Positions 17,458-61,721 of a stretch of DNA of 64,000 nucleotides are shown one piece after another. Made by a program: the position numbers and the translations under genes. How positions within the stretch are numbered: the stretch's first letter is position 1; every line of letters begins with the position of its first letter. Under the pieces are notes generated by a model. That model was given only the letters and a program-made list of their open reading frames with translations, was not told the origin of the DNA and made no database searches. Origin of the DNA: Rhodospirillales bacterium (lineage in GTDB: Bacteria > Pseudomonadota > Alphaproteobacteria > Acetobacterales > Acetobacteraceae); NCBI GenBank assembly GCA_025352665.1, contig JANXSM010000143.1:62001-126000 (forward strand), in the 5' to 3' direction.

Positions 17458-18452
17458 TGGACCCGCTGAAGCCGATCGTGAAATACACCGACATGGCGGA
17501 CCCGCAGGCGCGCCCTCGCTACACAGGGATCGCGACATTCTTTCGCACGCCCCATACCGAGGATCTCTCAGAGGTCGATGTTGGGCTGATCGGCGTGCCC
17601 TACGATGGCGGCGTGACGCACCGTAGCGGCGCGCGGCACGGGCCCAAGGCAGTGCGCGACCAATCGAGCATGCTGCGGCGATTCCACAACACAACGGGCT
17701 TCGCTCCGTTCGAGGCGGCGCGGGTGCGCGATCTCGGGGATTGCTGGATAGAGTTTCCGTATGAGCTGACGGGTGCGCTCGGCGAGATCGAGAGCTTCTA
17801 TCGCAAGATTATGGGCGCGGGTGTGACCCCGGTGACGGTGGGTGGCGACCATTCGATTTCCTGGCCGATCCTGAAGGCGGTCGCTCACAAAGGCCCGGTC
17901 GGCATGATCCATATCGACGCGCATTGCGACACCGGCGACGACTACATGGGCAGCCGTTTTCACCACGGCGCGCCGTTCAAACGGGCTGTGGAAGATGGCG
18001 CGTTGGATCCAAAGCGAGTCATTCAGATCGGCATTCGCGGCACCACCAACAGCCCGGACCATTGGGGATTCTCGCATTCCAGCGGTATGCGCGTGCTGGC
18101 AATGGATGAGTTCCAGGACAAAGGCTGGGCCTACGCGGTCGAGGAGGCGCGGCGTGTGATCGGCGATGGGCCGGTCTATCTGAGCTATGACATCGACAGT
18201 CTGGACCCGTCCGAAGCGCCAGGCACTGGCACGCCCGAGGCCGGTGGCATCCGGATGATCGAGGCGCTGCGGCTGCTGCGGGGATTGCGCGGGCTTGATT
18301 TCGTGGGTGGCGATCTCGTGGAGGTGGCGCCGTCCTGGGACAACGGGACGATCACCAGCTTCAACGGGGCCACGATCCTGTTCGAGATACTATGCCTCGT
18401 GACCGAGGCTCGGGTTGCCAGAACGCCTGAGGTTGAACCAACCGTGCGATAA
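17457..18452 (+). CDS. Agmatinase-family ureohydrolase
   Basis: A 331-residue member of the arginase/agmatinase family, which hydrolyses a guanidino group to urea using a binuclear Mn2+ or Ni2+ centre. Metal ligands are in GGDHS, HIDAHCDTGD and SYDIDSLDPSEAPGTGTPE. The N-terminal FRTPHTEDLSEVDVGLIGVP resembles agmatinases and guanidinobutyrases, so agmatine, guanidinobutyrate or guanidine are all possible substrates. The last nine or more residues (TPEVEPTVR) and the TAA stop are encoded by a reversed intergenic palindromic element, so the natural C-terminus has been replaced. Confidence 0.88.
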   Translation: MDPLKPIVKYTDMADPQARPRYTGIATFFRTPHTEDLSEVDVGLIGVPYDGGVTHRSGARHGPKAVRDQSSMLRRFHNTTGFAPFEAARVRDLGDCWIEFPYELTGALGEIESFYRKIMGAGVTPVTVGGDHSISWPILKAVAHKGPVGMIHIDAHCDTGDDYMGSRFHHGAPFKRAVEDGALDPKRVIQIGIRGTTNSPDHWGFSHSSGMRVLAMDEFQDKGWAYAVEEARRVIGDGPVYLSYDIDSLDPSEAPGTGTPEAGGIRMIEALRLLRGLRGLDFVGGDLVEVAPSWDNGTITSFNGATILFEILCLVTEARVARTPEVEPTVR

Positions 18453-18518
18453 AATTGCTCGGTAAAACAAAAGGCTAGAGCGGGATTGCGTCGCCTACCA
18501 GACATCATCGCGCTCTAG
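18412..18518 (-). repeat. Modular palindromic element, copy 1 (reverse orientation, partly decayed)
   Basis: A 107-bp copy read on the minus strand. The 44-bp hairpin module occupies 18475-18518 with CTAG at both ends, loop TGGTAGGC on the minus strand, and several stem mismatches. The 63-bp module occupies 18412-18474 and matches the copies at 44580-44642 and 61655-61721 (shared core GTTGAACCAACCGTGCGAT). The outer 20 bp are degenerate. It supplies the TAA stop and C-terminal codons of the ureohydrolase and, through CTA at 18515-18517, the TAG stop of the convergent MAPEG gene. The T-rich stretch follows the hairpin in the minus direction. Confidence 0.8.
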
Positions 18519-25943: not shown

Positions 25944-26570
25944 ATGAGCTCCGACGAAAATTCGTATTTTTACGAGCCAGCCAAGGGTCACGGCCTGCCA
26001 CATGATCCGTTCAATGCCATTGTCGGGCCGCGGCCGATCGGCTGGGTTTCGACCAAAAGTGCTGCGGGCCTGCTGAATCTGGCACCCTACAGCTTCTTCA
26101 ATGCGTTCAACTACACGCCGCCGATCATCGGGTTTTCCAGCACGAGTGCGAAGGACAGCGTGCGCAATGTGCGCGAGACCGGTGAATTCGTGTGGAACCT
26201 GGCCACGAAAGACGTCGCCGAGCAGATGAACGCCACCAGTGCCTCGGTATCGCCGGAGACCGATGAATTCGCTCTGTCGGGGCTGACGCCGATCGCGTCG
26301 ACCATCGTCGCGGTGCCGCGGGTGGCAGAGGCGCGTGTGAGCTTCGAGTGCAAGCTGACCGAGATCGTCGCACTGAAGTCATACTCGGGAGCCGCCACGC
26401 CTGCCTTTCTGGTGCTGGGCGAGGTCGTTGGCGTCCACATCCGCCAGTCGCTGCTGAAGGATGGAGTGTTCGACACGTTCGGTGCCGGCATCATCCTGCG
26501 CGCCGGCGGTCCAAGTGCCTATGCTCTGATCACGCCGGAAAGCCGCTTTGACATGCGGCGGCCCGCTTAG
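25944..26570 (+). CDS. Flavin reductase domain protein (FMN-binding split barrel)
   Basis: A 208-residue protein of the flavin reductase-like family, binding FMN and often supplying reduced flavin to a monooxygenase. Family motifs are PFNAIVGPRPIGWVSTKSA, NLAPYSFFNAFNYTPPIIGF and FVWNLATKDVAEQMN. GAGG at 25931-25934 precedes the ATG. No partner oxygenase is adjacent. Its TAG stop lies in the first bases of a palindromic element, so the last codon is at the insertion boundary. Confidence 0.87.
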   Translation: MSSDENSYFYEPAKGHGLPHDPFNAIVGPRPIGWVSTKSAAGLLNLAPYSFFNAFNYTPPIIGFSSTSAKDSVRNVRETGEFVWNLATKDVAEQMNATSASVSPETDEFALSGLTPIASTIVAVPRVAEARVSFECKLTEIVALKSYSGAATPAFLVLGEVVGVHIRQSLLKDGVFDTFGAGIILRAGGPSAYALITPESRFDMRRPA

Positions 26571-26650
26571 AGCGGGATGACGTCTGATAGGCGACGTCAT
26601 CCCGCTCTAGAATCTTATCGCTTCGTTTACCAGAAGCGACAAGACTCTAG
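26567..26650 (+). repeat. Modular palindromic element, copy 2: two 44-bp hairpins sharing a CTAG
   Basis: Hairpin A is 26567-26610: arms TAGAGCGGGATGACGTC and its exact complement, loop TGATAGGC. Hairpin B is 26607-26650 in inverse orientation: 18-base arms, two A/C mismatches (G-U wobbles on one strand), loop TGGTAAAC on the minus strand. The two share CTAG at 26607-26610. The arm sequences of A and B differ, but length (18-8-18) and loop type are the same. TAG at 26568-26570 ends the flavin reductase gene and CTA at 26647-26649 ends the convergent Gfo/Idh fragment. The 63-bp module is absent here. Confidence 0.85.
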
Positions 26651-35486: not shown

Positions 35487-35593
35487 CTAGAGCATGATCC
35501 GCGCTGATAGGCGCGCGGATCATGCTCTAGCCCTCTGTTTTAGCGAGCATCTTTATCCGAACGGTGATTCTGTTTGGTCGGATGATGCTCTAG
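35487..35593 (+). repeat. Modular palindromic element, copy 3 (class I, complete)
   Basis: A complete 107-bp copy bounded by CTAG at 35487, 35527 and 35590. The 44-bp hairpin has arms CTAGAGCATGATCCGCGC and exact complement, loop TGATAGGC. The 63-bp module ends GGATGATGCTCTAG and folds internally: GAGCATC-TTT-ATCCGA pairs with TCGGATGATGCTC, leaving a 3-base bulge. It differs from the copy at 61552-61658 at only two positions. Confidence 0.9.
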
Positions 35594-35644
35594 AGCGTGA
35601 TGACGTCTGATAGGCGACGTCATTACGCTCTAGCTCTTTTTTTT
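35590..35644 (+). terminator. Probable intrinsic terminator formed by repeat copy 4
   Basis: The 18-bp-stem hairpin at 35590-35633 is followed by CTC and eight T residues (35637-35644). This is a textbook rho-independent terminator for plus-strand transcripts leaving the amidohydrolase gene. The other copies have the weaker run CTTTGTTTT at the same place. Confidence 0.65.
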
Positions 35645-35679
35645 ATCGCGTGACCCCACCTTCGGTCATCACGCTCTAA
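35590..35679 (+). repeat. Modular palindromic element, copy 4 (class II, shortened distal module)
   Basis: This copy follows copy 3 head to tail and shares its CTAG. The hairpin is 35590-35633 (arms CTAGAGCGTGATGACGTC with one mismatch, loop TGATAGGC). The distal module is 46 instead of 63 bp because of an internal deletion, and ends TCATCACGCTCTAA. The end is read on the minus strand as AGAGCGTGA, giving the last two codons (Arg-Ala) and the TGA stop of the glycosyltransferase gene. Confidence 0.88.
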
Positions 35680-42847: not shown

Positions 42848-42929
42848 CCGGCCGGGCTGGAGCAGCGGCGCGAATTTAAGTCTGCCTTAAACACTCTCGC
42901 CCAGTCTCGCTTTGTCGCGGGGATGTCGC

Positions 42930-44546
42930 ATGGACGAGATGGCGGGTGGTTTTGGCTCGGGTATTTCGGTGCCGGTGCAGCATCTGCTGGACCTGGCGCT
43001 GCAGTTCTATCAGCAGGATCGGCTCGACGAGGCCGAGCGCGTTTGTGTCGACCTGCTCAAACGCCAGCCAGAGAATTTTTCCGGCTGGTATCTGTGCGGC
43101 ATGGTCGCGGCGCGAACCGGGCGGGGAGATACTGCCGCCGCAATGGTGGAGCGGGCGATCGCGCTGGAGCCGACGATCCCCGACATGCACCGTTATCTTG
43201 GCCACCTGCTGCAGTCATCCGGCCGCCTCGAACAGGCGATCGCCTGCTTTGACCGCGCCATCGCCTGCCATCCGCACGTGGCCGTGTTCCACGCCGGCCG
43301 TGGCTCGGCGCTGGATCATCTGCAGCGGCCGCGCGCGGCTTTGGCAAGTTTCGCGCGTGCCATGGCGTTGCAGCCTGATGATGCCGGCATTCTTGCCGAT
43401 TGCGCCAAAGTGCTCGCGTCGGTGGGGTGGCATGACGAGGCGCTGGCCGCGTTCGACCGGTCGGTCGGCCTGCGGCCGGACGATGCCGCCGCCTGGGTTG
43501 GACACGGCCACGCGCTGCGCGAGCTTGGCCGTCACGAGGAGGCGCTTGCGAGCTACGAAGCGGCGGCGGGCCTGCAGGCCGCTTGTCCCGACGCCCTGCT
43601 TGCGCGGGGCGAAACGCTGCTGCAGCTCGGGCGACTCGGGCAGGGATGGCCCATCTACATCGCGCACCGGCCACGCCCGCGTCTTGATCCATCCGCAGAA
43701 TGGAGTGGCGCGCAGCCGCTCGCCGGACAGGTTGTTCTGCTCACCGCCGGCGATGATCTTTGCGAAACGCTGCAGTATTTCCGTCTGGCGGCCACATTGA
43801 CGGCGCGTGGGGCGCGGGTTGTGTTGCAGGTTCAACCGCCCTTGCGCGCCTTGCTGCAGGCCGGCGCTGGCGATTTGACCGTCATCGATGACACCGTGGC
43901 AGCCCCGCCGTTCGATCTGTGGTGCGAGCTCGACCGCCTGCCCGCGTTGCTCGGCATGACGGAGACGAGCATTCCGCCGTCAGCCGGCATTTCTGCCGAT
44001 GCTGACCTGAAACAGCTCTGGAGCTTTCGCCTGCCGCGGGGTCGCCCGCGGATCGGCCTTGCGTGGAGCGACCAGGCAGCGCCGCATACGCTTTCGCTGA
44101 CCGCACTGCGCCCGCTGCTGGGACTCGACGCGGATCTGATCTGCCTCGATGCGGCACCAACTGCGCCCGATCTTGCGGAATTGGACGCATCCGGGCGGAT
44201 GCTTATGCTTGGCGCGGAGCTGGGGGAGCGTCGCGATGCGGCTGCCGTGATCGACCAGCTCGACCTTGTGATCAGCGTCGACTGCGACATCGCCCATCTG
44301 GCGGGGGGATTGGGCAAACCGATTTGGCTGTTGCTGCCGGTCAATCCGCATTTTCGCTGGATGGTCGGCCGCGACGACTCGCCCTGGTATCCCTCGGCGC
44401 GGCTGTTCCGCCAGACACGCGCGAGCGATTGGGCGGCGGTTGTCGACCGCGTTGTGGCGGAACTCGCCGAGCCACGACAGACCGCGCAGGCGGCCTTAGA
44501 GCTTGGTCGCTGCTGGCAGGCGAAGCAATCAGGCTCTAGAGCGTGA
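42930..44546 (+). CDS. TPR protein with GT9/heptosyltransferase-like C-terminal domain
   Basis: A 538-residue protein. Residues about 10-230 contain at least six tetratricopeptide repeats (units such as GRLEQAIACFDRAIACHP and GWHDEALAAFDRSVGLRP). Residues about 270-520 form a GT-B-like domain with PRIGLAWSDQ, ISVDCDIAHLAGGLGKPIW and the characteristic DSPWYPSARLFRQ. The family is usually annotated as TPR plus glycosyltransferase 9-like. The last residues SRA and the TGA stop lie in repeat copy 5, so the original end has been replaced. TTTAAG/CTTAAA at 42875-42891 is the only inverted repeat in the 82-bp gap upstream. Confidence 0.82.
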   Translation: MDEMAGGFGSGISVPVQHLLDLALQFYQQDRLDEAERVCVDLLKRQPENFSGWYLCGMVAARTGRGDTAAAMVERAIALEPTIPDMHRYLGHLLQSSGRLEQAIACFDRAIACHPHVAVFHAGRGSALDHLQRPRAALASFARAMALQPDDAGILADCAKVLASVGWHDEALAAFDRSVGLRPDDAAAWVGHGHALRELGRHEEALASYEAAAGLQAACPDALLARGETLLQLGRLGQGWPIYIAHRPRPRLDPSAEWSGAQPLAGQVVLLTAGDDLCETLQYFRLAATLTARGARVVLQVQPPLRALLQAGAGDLTVIDDTVAAPPFDLWCELDRLPALLGMTETSIPPSAGISADADLKQLWSFRLPRGRPRIGLAWSDQAAPHTLSLTALRPLLGLDADLICLDAAPTAPDLAELDASGRMLMLGAELGERRDAAAVIDQLDLVISVDCDIAHLAGGLGKPIWLLLPVNPHFRWMVGRDDSPWYPSARLFRQTRASDWAAVVDRVVAELAEPRQTAQAALELGRCWQAKQSGSRA

Positions 44547-44642
44547 TGACGTCTGATAGGCGACGTCATCACGCTCTAGCTCTTTGTTTTAACGAGCAGT
44601 TTTATCGCACAGTTGGTTCAACCTCAGACGATATTACTCTAG
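44536..44642 (+). repeat. Modular palindromic element, copy 5 (class II hairpin joined to a class III distal module)
   Basis: A complete 107-bp copy with CTAG at 44536, 44576 and 44639. The hairpin (44536-44579) has exactly complementary arms CTAGAGCGTGATGACGTC and loop TGATAGGC. The 63-bp module is of a different class from that in copies 4 and 6; it instead resembles copies 1 and 8 (TTTTATCGCACAGTTGGTTC). Its outer end ATATTACTCTAG no longer matches the hairpin arm, so this copy looks like a recombinant. It supplies the stop of the TPR gene and ends 4 bp before the convergent tupA stop. Confidence 0.88.
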
Positions 44643-44646
44643 GCGG

Positions 44647-45450
44647 TCACCCTCCGGTCGAAGCGTCCGGGTGGAAGAGTTGCTGGCCGCCGATCTGGAG
44701 GGCGCCGATGGCGGCCTGACCGGCGGGCGCTGCAAGCCACTCCGCCAGCTGTCGTGCCAATGTCAGCTTCGCCTGCGGATGCAGTGCCGGGTTGAGCTGA
44801 ATGACATCGTAGCGGTTGATCAAGGCCGGGTCGCCCTGCAGGACGATGGTCAGATGCCGCTTGTTGTTGAAGGCGAGCCAGGTGCCGCGATCGGACAAGG
44901 TGACGGCGTCCAGGGCCGCGGCCGCGTTGAGGGCAGCGCCCATGCCGCCGCCGATGTCCTTGTACCACCCCTGGCCCACGGGGTTCCGCCCCGCGGCTTT
45001 CCAAATGCGCTTCTCCTGGGCGTCCGTGCCGCTTTTGTCGCCGCGGGAGACGAAAATGGTCTGGCTCGAAAAGATCGCCTCAAGGGCGGTGACGGCGCTG
45101 GCCGATACGGCGAAATGCGCTGAATTGTCGGCCGGCCCGACCAGGATGAAGTCGTTCCAGGCGATCTCGCGTCGCAGGATGCCGTGGCCGGACTGGATGA
45201 AAGCAGCCTCCGCGTCCGGGTCGTGTACCAGGACGAGATCGGCGTCACCGTGCGTGGCGGTGGCGAGCGCCTGACCTGTGCCTTGCGCCAGCACCTTCAC
45301 GTCGATGCCGGTCTGCTTGGTGAACTGCGGCAGGATGGCCGCGAGCAGGCCCGAGGCGTCGACCGAGGTGGTGGAGGCCAGAGTGATCGTCTCGGCACGG
45401 GCCGCCTGGGCTGTGAGCAGCGTGAGCAGAACGAGGAGCAGGCGGATCAT
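44647..45450 (-). CDS. tupA: Tungstate ABC transporter substrate-binding protein TupA
   Basis: A 267-residue exported binding protein. The signal peptide covers residues 1-19. TLASTTSVDASGLLAAILP is the TupA/ModA-like oxyanion motif, with the TTS loop typical of TupA, and ADLVLVHDPDAEAAFIQSGH and FVSRGDKSGTDAQEKRIW follow. TupA binds tungstate with very high affinity for tungsten enzymes or to compete with molybdate. Its ATG overlaps the tupB stop (ATGA), so the genes are coupled, in the order tupB-tupA. Confidence 0.9.
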   Translation of the reverse strand: MIRLLLVLLTLLTAQAARAETITLASTTSVDASGLLAAILPQFTKQTGIDVKVLAQGTGQALATATHGDADLVLVHDPDAEAAFIQSGHGILRREIAWNDFILVGPADNSAHFAVSASAVTALEAIFSSQTIFVSRGDKSGTDAQEKRIWKAAGRNPVGQGWYKDIGGGMGAALNAAAALDAVTLSDRGTWLAFNNKRHLTIVLQGDPALINRYDVIQLNPALHPQAKLTLARQLAEWLAAPAGQAAIGALQIGGQQLFHPDASTGG

Positions 45451-59853: not shown

Positions 59854-60675
59854 ATGGCCCCGGAGATCGATTGGACACGCCTGACCGGGCCTGAGATCCG
59901 CGCGGTGGCGGAGCGTGGCGATGCGCTGGCGGTTTTGCCGGTGGGCTCGCTCGAGCAGCATGGGCCGCATCTTCCCGTCATCACCGACACGCGCACCGCT
60001 TGGGAGGTGGCCATTCGTGCCGCTCGCCTTGCAGCGCCCGAGGTGCCGGTTCTGGTGTTGCCGGGACTGTGGACGGGGATGAGCGAGCATCACCTTCCAT
60101 TCGGCGGCACGATCACGCTGGATTTTGAAGCGTTCCATGGGGTGCTGCGCGGCATCACCCGCAGCCTGCGCGCGCTGGGCTTCGCCCGCCTGCTGATTGT
60201 GAACGGCCATGGCGGCAACATTGATCCGCTTGCGGTTTCGGCGCGCGAACTTGCCCATGAATACGGGCTCGCCGTGGTGGCGACCACGCCCTGGACCATT
60301 CCTGCGGCGGCCAAGGCGATCGCCGGCCTGATGGAATCAGTGCCCAACGTACAACACGCCTGCGAGGCGGAGACCTCGGTGATGCTGGCCATGGTGCCGG
60401 AATTGGTGCGGACCGAGAAGTTCGAGGAGGCGACCCGCCAAGCCCCGCCCGCGGTTCCGAGCAGGCCTGGGTTCAGCCGGTTCTGGGCCTTCTCCGAAAG
60501 GGCGCCCGCCACTGGCGTGGTTGGTGATCCACGCCTGGCGACGGCCGCCAAGGGCGAGCAAATGCTCGATGCGATGGCAGCTGCGGTGGCGGAAGCGATG
60601 ACTGACGCCGATCTGTGGCGCCGTCCCGACGATGTCTGGGCGCCTGGCCGAGGGTTGGGTTCGACGGTTCCCTAA
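59854..60675 (+). CDS. Creatininase family amidohydrolase
   Basis: A 273-residue metal-dependent amidohydrolase. LAVLPVGSLEQHGPHLPVIT holds the Glu/His metal ligands with a following Asp (DTRTAW), LIVNGHGGNIDPLAVSAREL is the second motif, and HACEAETSVMLAM provides the last Glu. Relatives act on creatinine, formamidopyrimidines or mycofactocin peptides; the substrate here is open. A GTG at 59848 overlapping the previous stop (GTGA) is an alternative start. Its TAA stop lies at the left edge of repeat copy 6. Confidence 0.87.
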   Translation: MAPEIDWTRLTGPEIRAVAERGDALAVLPVGSLEQHGPHLPVITDTRTAWEVAIRAARLAAPEVPVLVLPGLWTGMSEHHLPFGGTITLDFEAFHGVLRGITRSLRALGFARLLIVNGHGGNIDPLAVSARELAHEYGLAVVATTPWTIPAAAKAIAGLMESVPNVQHACEAETSVMLAMVPELVRTEKFEEATRQAPPAVPSRPGFSRFWAFSERAPATGVVGDPRLATAAKGEQMLDAMAAAVAEAMTDADLWRRPDDVWAPGRGLGSTVP

Positions 60676-60841
60676 AGCGTGATGACCCTTTGACAGGCGG
60701 CGTCATCCCGTGATGGATCTTTGTTTTGTCGCGTGATTCAGACCTTTCGGTGATTTCACCTTCGGTCATCACGCTCAAGCTCTTTGTTTTATCGCGTGAT
60801 TCAGACCTTTCGGTGATTTCACCTTCGGTCATCACGCTCAA
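60672..60841 (+). repeat. Modular palindromic element, copy 6 (decayed hairpin plus two tandem 63-bp modules)
   Basis: The 44-bp position (60672-60715) is occupied by a decayed hairpin that still has complementary GATGAC/GTCATC-type cores. Two class II 63-bp modules follow directly, 60716-60778 and 60779-60841, differing at only three positions. Each holds GCGTGAT-TCA-GACC pairing with GGTCATCACGC, the same bulged fold as class I. CTAA at 60672-60675 provides the creatininase stop. The remaining 72 bp before bluB (60842-60913) contain nothing I recognise. Confidence 0.88.
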
Positions 60842-60913: not shown

Positions 60914-61555
60914 GTGACGTTAACCCCTCTCTTCGACGACGTCTTCCGCGCCCAGCTAGCCAAGCTATTCGCCTGGCGACGCGACATTCGGCATTTCCGT
61001 CCCGAGCCGGTTCCGGGCGAACTGCTGCAGCGATTGCTGGATCTGGCCTGTCTAGCCCCCTCAGTTGGCCTCAGTGAGCCCTGGCGCTTCGTGATCGTCG
61101 ACAGTCCCGCGCGCAGGGAGGCCGTCCGTGTCAACTTTGAGTGCTGCAACGCCGCGGCGCTCGCAGCACAGAACACCGATCACTCGGCGGCCTATGCGCG
61201 GCTGAAGCTCGCAGGCCTGAACCAAGCCCCCTGCCAGTTCGCCGTCTTCGCCGATCCGGATCCGAGCCAGGGCCGCGGACTTGGCCGTGCAACGATGCCG
61301 GAAACCGCTGCCTATTCTGCGGTTATGGCTGTCGCCACGCTGTGGCTCGCTGCCCGCGCCCACGGTCTGGGGCTCGGCTGGGTTTCCATCCTTGATCCCG
61401 CAGCAATCACTGCAGCACTGGACACCGCGCCCGACTGGATTTTCATCGGTTACTTCTGCCTGGGGTATCCCCAGACAGACGACGACCTCCCCGCACTGCA
61501 ACGCGCCGGTTGGGAGTTCCGACGCGCGCCGGCGGCGACCATTGTTCAACGCTAG
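60914..61555 (+). CDS. bluB: 5,6-dimethylbenzimidazole synthase BluB
   Basis: A 213-residue flavin-destructase of the nitroreductase fold that converts reduced FMN and oxygen to 5,6-dimethylbenzimidazole, the lower ligand of vitamin B12. BluB features: FAWRRDIRHFRPEPVPGELL, LAPSVGLSEPWRFVIVD, GRGLGRATMPETAAYSAVMA and GLGWVSILDP. The start is GTG 60914; TTG 60875 is a possible alternative. No other cobalamin gene or B12 riboswitch is adjacent. The TAG stop is the first CTAG of repeat copy 7. Confidence 0.92.
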   Translation: MTLTPLFDDVFRAQLAKLFAWRRDIRHFRPEPVPGELLQRLLDLACLAPSVGLSEPWRFVIVDSPARREAVRVNFECCNAAALAAQNTDHSAAYARLKLAGLNQAPCQFAVFADPDPSQGRGLGRATMPETAAYSAVMAVATLWLAARAHGLGLGWVSILDPAAITAALDTAPDWIFIGYFCLGYPQTDDDLPALQRAGWEFRRAPAATIVQR

Positions 61556-61658
61556 AGCATGATCCGCGCTGATAGGCGCGCGGATCATGCTCTAGCCTTT
61601 TGTTTTAGCGAGCATCTTTATCCGAACGGTGATTCTGTTTGGTCGGATGATGCTCTAG
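61552..61658 (+). repeat. Modular palindromic element, copy 7 (class I, complete)
   Basis: A 107-bp copy with CTAG at 61552, 61592 and 61655. Hairpin 61552-61595 has arms CTAGAGCATGATCCGCGC and exact complement, loop TGATAGGC. The 63-bp module has the bulged fold GAGCATC-TTT-ATCCGA/TCGGATGATGCTC. It differs from copy 3, 26 kb away, only at two positions in the T-rich linker, showing recent spread or conversion. It supplies the bluB stop. Confidence 0.9.
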
Positions 61659-61721
61659 AGCCTGATCGCCTGAAGTTGAACCAACCGTGCGATAAAATTG
61701 CTCGTTAAAACAGGAGGCTAG
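61655..61721 (-). repeat. Modular palindromic element, copy 8 (class III distal module only, reversed)
   Basis: A reversed 63-bp class III module bounded by CTAG at 61655 (shared with copy 7) and 61718. It matches copy 1 over GTTGAACCAACCGTGCGAT. No 44-bp hairpin follows; instead the outer end of another module begins again (CTAGAGCCTGAGGTTGAA, 61718-61735) and is cut off. The remaining 47 bp before the oxygenase stop hold nothing recognisable. Confidence 0.78.

Follow-up and report, generated by a model that had tools for sequence, protein, structure and literature searches.

Mosaic array of class II and class III hairpin repeats with IS630-type ends in a Rhodospirillales genome

Architecture of the array

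The array occupies positions 44497–44642 of the window (the 64,000-nt stretch of DNA that was analysed) and is located between two convergent gene ends. Upstream on the plus strand is a TPR-repeat open reading frame (42912–44546), the last codons of which cross the first hairpin of the array; its stop codon (TGA, 44544–44546) is supplied by the array and lies in an arm of the second hairpin. Downstream, an open reading frame on the minus strand (44647–45450) encodes a PBP-like solute-binding protein. The genome itself (G000) is 5.27 Mb in size and is assembled in 177 contigs.

The array is composed of three modules on the plus strand, a class III hairpin, a class II hairpin and a class III distal module (HIII-HII-dIII). 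The first is a decayed hairpin bounded by TA dinucleotides (44497–44538), which overlaps the 3′ end of the upstream frame; it is a match of the hairpin pattern (C36:106497–106538; no reversed-control matches in this genome) and its class was called by the nearest arm. A CTAG (44536–44539), the presumed TA target at which a class II MITE entered, is common to this hairpin and the next. The second is a perfect 44-bp class II hairpin running from CTAG to CTAG (44536–44579), with perfect arms and the octaloop TGATAGGC recovered by both pattern and fold (44537–44578). A second CTAG (44576–44579) closes it. The remainder (44580–44642) ends in a class III distal module: a class II-type linker, AGCTCTTTGTTTTA (44578–44591), leads into the class III distal module proper (44592–44642), the outer end of which reads GAGTAATATCGTCTGAGGTTGAAC inward and terminates in the outer CTAG (44639–44642). 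A sequence-only reading had described 44536–44642 as one recombinant element joining a class II hairpin to a class III distal module. That combination is real, and the hybrid character of the element stands; its start does not, as the unit begins upstream of 44536, with the decayed class III hairpin that shares the CTAG.

The class switch is located within the 9-bp box TTTGTTTTA (44583–44591), which is shared between classes, and not at the CTAG, because linker positions 3–5 read CTC, the class II type. CTC is found at these positions in 52 of 70 elements with a class II hairpin and class II distal module (II/II), in 0 of 49 III/III elements and in 0 of 8 I/I elements. Over the 27 bases compared (44578–44604), the sequence is of class II until TTTGTTTTA and of class III beyond it, with one base fitting neither. 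An exchange at the shared CTAG, as had been proposed, is thus a less fitting account of this copy: the switch is downstream and a class III hairpin is still present on the other side.

The outer end of the array had also been singled out as failing to match the hairpin arm. In classes I and II, the outer ends are indeed inverted copies of the arms (by eye, with one mismatch in class I), and the end at 44642 is indeed mismatched; it is, however, an ordinary class III end and not a scar. The end of this copy, ATATTACTC (...CGATATTACTC), is a variant of the usual class III end, GCGATATTGCTC. Among III/III elements, GATATTGC is found in 33 of 49 and a looser form in 41 of 49, whereas the arm-like GATCAGGC is found in 0 of 49. 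In a single case, a class III module without hairpin (61655–61719), the arm-like GATCAGGC is present.

Folded as single-stranded DNA, 44536–44642 is markedly stable (z = −6.6; 0 of 200 shuffles equally stable), with the first hairpin retained and a weaker second one. A single unit of each class, and another from the relative G071, likewise form two hairpins each (z = −7.1 to −9.0). Two inverted repeats joined by a linker are therefore found in all five elements folded (z = −6.6 to −9.0).

Linkage between hairpin and distal classes

The family is abundant in this genome. With 44536–44642 as a query, at least 54 places were found (40 of 254 candidates being scored). Searches by motif gave 90 CTAGAGC...GCTCTAG hairpins (reversed control, 8), 73 class III distal cores (control, 0) and 124 class II distal ends (control, 0), the 90 hairpins and 124 distal ends being listed for their first places; another hairpin search gave 128 hairpins, 100 of them listed (reversed control, 3), and the pattern TAGAGC-N10-CTGNNNGGCG-N10-GCTCTA gave 86 matches against 0 for the reversed pattern. 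An exact class II hairpin was found in none of the genome contigs searched, a set that may lack records close to the window, and plasmid records gave no match to a class I element.

We classified 169 hairpins from the window and 155 further stretches (99 class II, 60 class III, 8 class I and 2 hybrid), a sample picked by hairpin or class III core, which gives too much weight to class III and under-counts solo class II distal modules. Hairpins of pure class with a called distal module number 134, and 127 of these pairs are concordant (8 I/I, 70 II/II and 49 III/III). Seven are discordant: five II/III (44538, 18477 on the minus strand, L088, L113 and L116), one III/II (L063) and one III/I (L100). 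When distal modules were shuffled over 20,000 rounds, the concordant pairs averaged 60.9 and never exceeded 82. Hairpin and distal modules are thus linked, not free, and class III modules are not the usual partners of class II hairpins, being found behind 5 of the 75 with a called distal module. A further 24 class II and 9 class III hairpins have no called distal module; in some of them, what comes immediately next is another hairpin, an inverted module or the end of the contig.

These numbers bear on the original proposal that modules are exchanged freely at the shared CTAG, building mosaics. Mosaics do exist, as the 7 discordant pairs of 134 attest, and in three of the five II/III pairs (L088, L113 and 18477–18516) a class III linker follows straight after the CTAG. 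Because their linker is of class III, a switch at the CTAG or in the hairpin is possible in these three; one of them is the second discordant element in the window (18417–18518, minus strand), in which a class II-like hairpin with the class III-type loop TGGTAGGC is followed by class III linker and distal module. However, given the strong linkage of classes and a class II linker that runs past the CTAG at 44536, free exchange is an improbable account of the array, and mixing is the exception.

More than one type of junction occurs, because in the hybrid hairpins L072 and L176, both with class III distal modules, and in C74:8554 (by eye), the class changes within the hairpin itself. In L072 and L094 (C74:8554–8597), the arms are of two classes and the switch is at the loop.

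IS630-type ends of the units

Both ends of the units read TA-GAGC... inward. 5′ ends are CTAG or TTAG in 111 of the 127 concordant units; 3′ ends are CTAG or CTAA in 79 of the 98 elements (among the 127) with a recognisable GCTC end. Both ends therefore lie at TA, preferably within CTAG. According to the title of Tenzen and Ohtsubo 1991, as cited in PMC2170065, an IS630-associated transposon prefers TA in CTAG, and the part of PMC2170065 consulted describes TA targets and TA duplication for ISY100.

This genome contains 21 matches to DDE_3 (IS630), 19 of them above the cut-off. One of the loci, L187 (contig C21), spans 1048 bp between TA dinucleotides and carries two overlapping frames, with matches to HTH_Tnp_IS630 (21.7 bits, cut-off 21.3), DDE_3 (1.3e-35) and NF033545 (second frame, 160 bits, cut-off 100). 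Its left end is TA followed by GAGCGTGATGACGTTT (given as GAGCGTGATGACGTTTGAGTG) and its right end is GAGTCTGATGACATTAG. The class II hairpin starts GAGCGTGATGACGTCTGATAG, and the class II arm is identical to the left end of L187 over GAGCGTGATGACGT. Class II is thus matched by the TIR of an IS630 from the same genome; classes I and III are matched only by IS630 elements of other species. In this genome, an end search valid for plus-strand matches delimited no IS630 whose TIRs are class I or class III arms. The end search of the relatives described below has the same scope; from these searches, L189, L198, L206 and L322 were then read by eye.

The best 80 IS630 relatives kept from a scan of public genomes, most of them alpha-proteobacterial, include Novosphingobium, Asticcacaulis, Bradyrhizobium and Gluconacetobacter. 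We examined 55 of these 80 loci and built a profile from 45, after nine without clear ends on both sides and one same-genome repeat copy were dropped. The ends of the 45 loci lie 1045–1055 bp from each other; examples of their TIRs are GAGCGGGATGAC, GAGCGTGATGAC and GAGCATGATC. A C precedes the TA at 37 of 44 left ends and at 37 of 45 right ends, and in 31 loci the two ends read CTA...TAG.

The right-end profile of these 45 IS ends was run over the 1595 TA sites of the window on both strands, a background that includes the window's own repeats. The top nine sites are all repeat ends (61656, 44641, 44537, 35591, 61657, 35592, 26568, 18517 and 35678), and these nine also come out on top with the left-end profile. 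The site at 44641, where the array described here ends, takes second place with the right profile and first place over positions 11–24. None of the 1595 sites scores as high as the class II distal consensus with the left profile; for the class I distal end, 2 sites score at least as high with the left profile and 6 with the right. Hairpin arms match the IS630 TIRs over the outer 10–15 bp only; over positions 11–24 their scores are reached by 20 to 322 sites.

IS630 ends are also observed at the junctions of such units. In L157, an IS630-like end (TTA followed by GAGCGGGATGC) follows a class III distal module, and in L039 one lies at a CTAG inside a class III unit; both are similar to the IS630 loci. 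In the relative G049, an IS630 end abuts a hairpin (L315; CTA followed by GAGCAGAATCC), and its frame is identical to the C terminus of L188 at 28 of 38 positions. A further candidate, a MITE beside an IS630 remnant on contig C108, was set aside: only one flank is IS630, and it is therefore unusable as an interrupted gene.

Short palindromes in mosaic arrays are also what REP/BIME elements moved by a RAYT (Y1 transposase) look like. The present ends, unlike theirs, are TA/CTAG, and no RAYT was found: Y1_Tnp (PF01797) had no match at E ≤ 0.001 in this draft genome, whereas the control search was positive in 5 of 14 genomes, including Caulobacter vibrioides and E. coli. We regard a RAYT-driven origin as extremely improbable.

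Stacked units and the origin of the array

Hairpins lying within 60 bp of each other usually abut: in 9 of 10 such pairs the gap is 0 and the TA is shared, and some pairs are head to head. Arrays related to the one described here are also found. L074 has the order HII-dII-HIII-dIII and L138 the order HII-dII-half-HIII-dIII; L065, L112 and L130 read HII-dII-dIII, with boxes 63 bp apart; in L156, dII and dIII come after a shortened class II hairpin of which a 20-bp palindrome is left. Tandem HII-dII arrays are present as well. In the window, a class I element (HI-dI) shares a CTAG with the HII that comes after it, the dII of which is truncated (35487–35678, plus strand), and another HI-dI is followed by an inverted dIII (61552–61721, plus strand). 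The full array HIII-HII-dII-dIII was found in none of the stretches examined.

At 60670–60830, a decayed class II hairpin is followed by two tandem 63-bp class II distal copies, 87% alike. The tandem copies show that distal modules can double or disappear as units. At 26568–26650, a class II hairpin and an inverted class III-like hairpin lie end to end, and neither has a called distal module.

For the 44536 copy, insertion at CTAG followed by deletion is indicated by the downstream position of the switch, the retained class III hairpin and the arrays HII-dII-HIII-dIII and HII-dII-dIII. We thus propose that, probably, a class II IS630-type MITE landed at a CTAG inside a resident class III MITE and that its distal module was then deleted between TTTGTTTTA repeats. 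A full unit is about 105 bp long (TA-GAGC...GCTC-TA) and comprises an inner hairpin, the left arm of which bears one TIR tip, an AT-rich linker and a weaker second hairpin, the outer end of which is the other TIR. Units would be mobilised in trans, putatively by the transposase of the approximately 1.05-kb IS630 elements with matching ends, acting at TA, chiefly in CTAG. As units mostly start with CTAG, have a CTAG in the middle and end in CTAG or CTAA, resident units may serve as landing pads. Entry of a class II unit at the CTAG between a class III hairpin and its distal module would yield HIII-[HII-dII]-dIII; if the 63-bp class II distal module were then deleted between the two TTTGTTTTA boxes, HIII-HII-dIII with a class II linker would remain. 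The arrays form the series that landing of units on CTAG, with loss of hairpins or distal modules between repeats, would be expected to produce. Insertion of a bare 40-bp hairpin into a class III unit is disfavoured for 44536, since the linker would then be of class III.

The main rival is gene conversion or a double crossover, by which a class III element would have received a tract of class II hairpin plus linker, with switches near the CTAG and in TTTGTTTTA. In its favour are the switch within a 9-bp box common to the classes and the hybrid hairpins, in which the class changes within the hairpin. However, the class III hairpin persists upstream, so nothing was replaced and the tract would have to be added, which is achieved more simply by insertion; the abutting of 9 of 10 close hairpin pairs with gap 0 also argues against conversion. 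We consider it unlikely, though the strongest competitor to insertion and deletion.

Hairpins and IS630 elements in relatives

Among 24 relatives, the orthologous site of 44536 was found in none with both flanks in one place, so no empty site was recovered; in the five congeners (G002–G006), only the downstream gene aligns, in whole or in part, at 68–72% identity. One class III remnant of this genome (L070), a unit lacking nearly all of its hairpin, is absent from the homologous stretch of congener G002 (L214), the flanks being 78–82% identical and too diverged for a TA duplication to be read. An exact empty site with TA duplication was obtained in none of the relatives compared.

Hairpins with the loop CTGNNNGGCG are found in 6 of 60 genomes of the family, this one included, with 0 reversed-control matches. 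With the loop left unfixed, loops of the CTGNNAG type are found in all 4 matches listed for G005, in 2 of 3 for G011, in 8 of 12 listed for G036 and in 5 of 6 for G071 (by eye), on different, paired arms. With this unfixed loop, seven relatives gave 2–13 matches against 4–15 for the reversed control; there is no excess, and the evidence in those seven is the pairing and the loops of the listed matches, not their number. In G007, 78 palindromes were found (control, 12); their loop is another one, and their arms read, for example, GAGCGTGATGATTTTG or GAGCCTGATGATTTTG. The octaloop TGATAGGC, replaced by TGGTAGGC in most class III hairpins, reappears from genus to genus, and the arms change yet stay paired.

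DDE_3 had no match in four of the six relatives searched (G005, G007, G036 and G049). This counts against mobilisation by IS630, although multicopy IS are lost from drafts, such as the 75%-complete G007, and an IS630 end lies at the edge of a contig in G049. The other two genomes gave five DDE_3 matches, among which no IS630 with arm-matching TIRs was delimited.

Arms that vary between genera yet remain paired, recurrent CTGATAG-like loops and a position between convergent genes are features expected of functional RNA or terminator hairpins held by selection and not mobile, the mixing of classes being drift by repeat recombination. Against this stand the high copy number, the TA/CTAG ends, the IS630-like TIRs and the stacked and head-to-head arrays, so that we think it very improbable; that no Rfam family reached its gathering score in the window says little either way.

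A broader proposal, which we put forward tentatively, is that of a self-landing family of two-hairpin MITEs: its own CTAG junctions would be the preferred TA targets of the IS630 that moves it, so that units and IS copies pile up, while the arms follow the TIR of the local IS630 and the TGATAGGC-type octaloop is fixed across genera. If true, CIR- and RIME-like repeats of alpha-proteobacteria would be IS630 derivatives, and the octaloop hairpin would be an added working part.

Relation to known repeats

The closest described repeats are the Caulobacter CcrM-associated intergenic repeats (CIR; Chen and Shapiro 2003, via PMC2229807 and PMC10969869), to which we compare our units by description only. 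In the portion of PMC2229807 consulted, CIR have two inverted repeats plus a linker, GANTC at the loop and TA ends, with no TIR listed and target duplication given as unknown; this 2007 review considers that their mobility needs more information, and PMC10969869, from the part consulted, treats them among MITEs. The units described here share the two inverted repeats and linker, the TA termini and occurrence in alpha-proteobacteria, and most class I and class II modules also have GANTC in or near a hairpin loop. They differ in that their ends match IS630 TIRs and in that class III mostly lacks GANTC (3 of 49 modules). GANTC accompanies 68 of 70 class II modules, and GATTC 5 of 8 class I modules; GATTC is also in the loop of the second hairpin of the G071 unit. 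The 44536 copy, as most of class III, is without GANTC in or near the terminal loop.

RUP of Streptococcus pneumoniae, for which IS630-Spn1 has been proposed as the mover (PMC2229807, in the part consulted), is alike in its length of about 107 bp, its TA target and TIRs that resemble those of an IS630 element, but the present units contain two hairpins each and are stacked at CTAG. RIME and the A, B and C palindromes of rhizobia (PMC2573895, consulted in part and compared by description only) are similarly intergenic, mosaic or palindromic alpha-proteobacterial repeats. No link of CIR or RIME to IS630 was found in the titles and abstract openings of open-licence papers.

The two-hairpin GANTC repeats of the CIR type were left without a TIR, a known target duplication or a mover in the 2007 review, as far as the part consulted goes (PMC2229807). 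Ends of a CIR-like family that match IS630 TIRs, together with IS630 ends at CTAG junctions, name a testable transposase and, on the evidence of the sequences, suggest how such repeats spread in alpha-proteobacteria. From the mosaics, such families may diversify as units land on one another and shed parts, a course that leaves hairpin and distal classes mostly linked.

In the window as a whole, GANTC occurs 66 times, against about 200 expected from base composition; it is approximately three-fold under-represented, yet is kept in class II distal modules.
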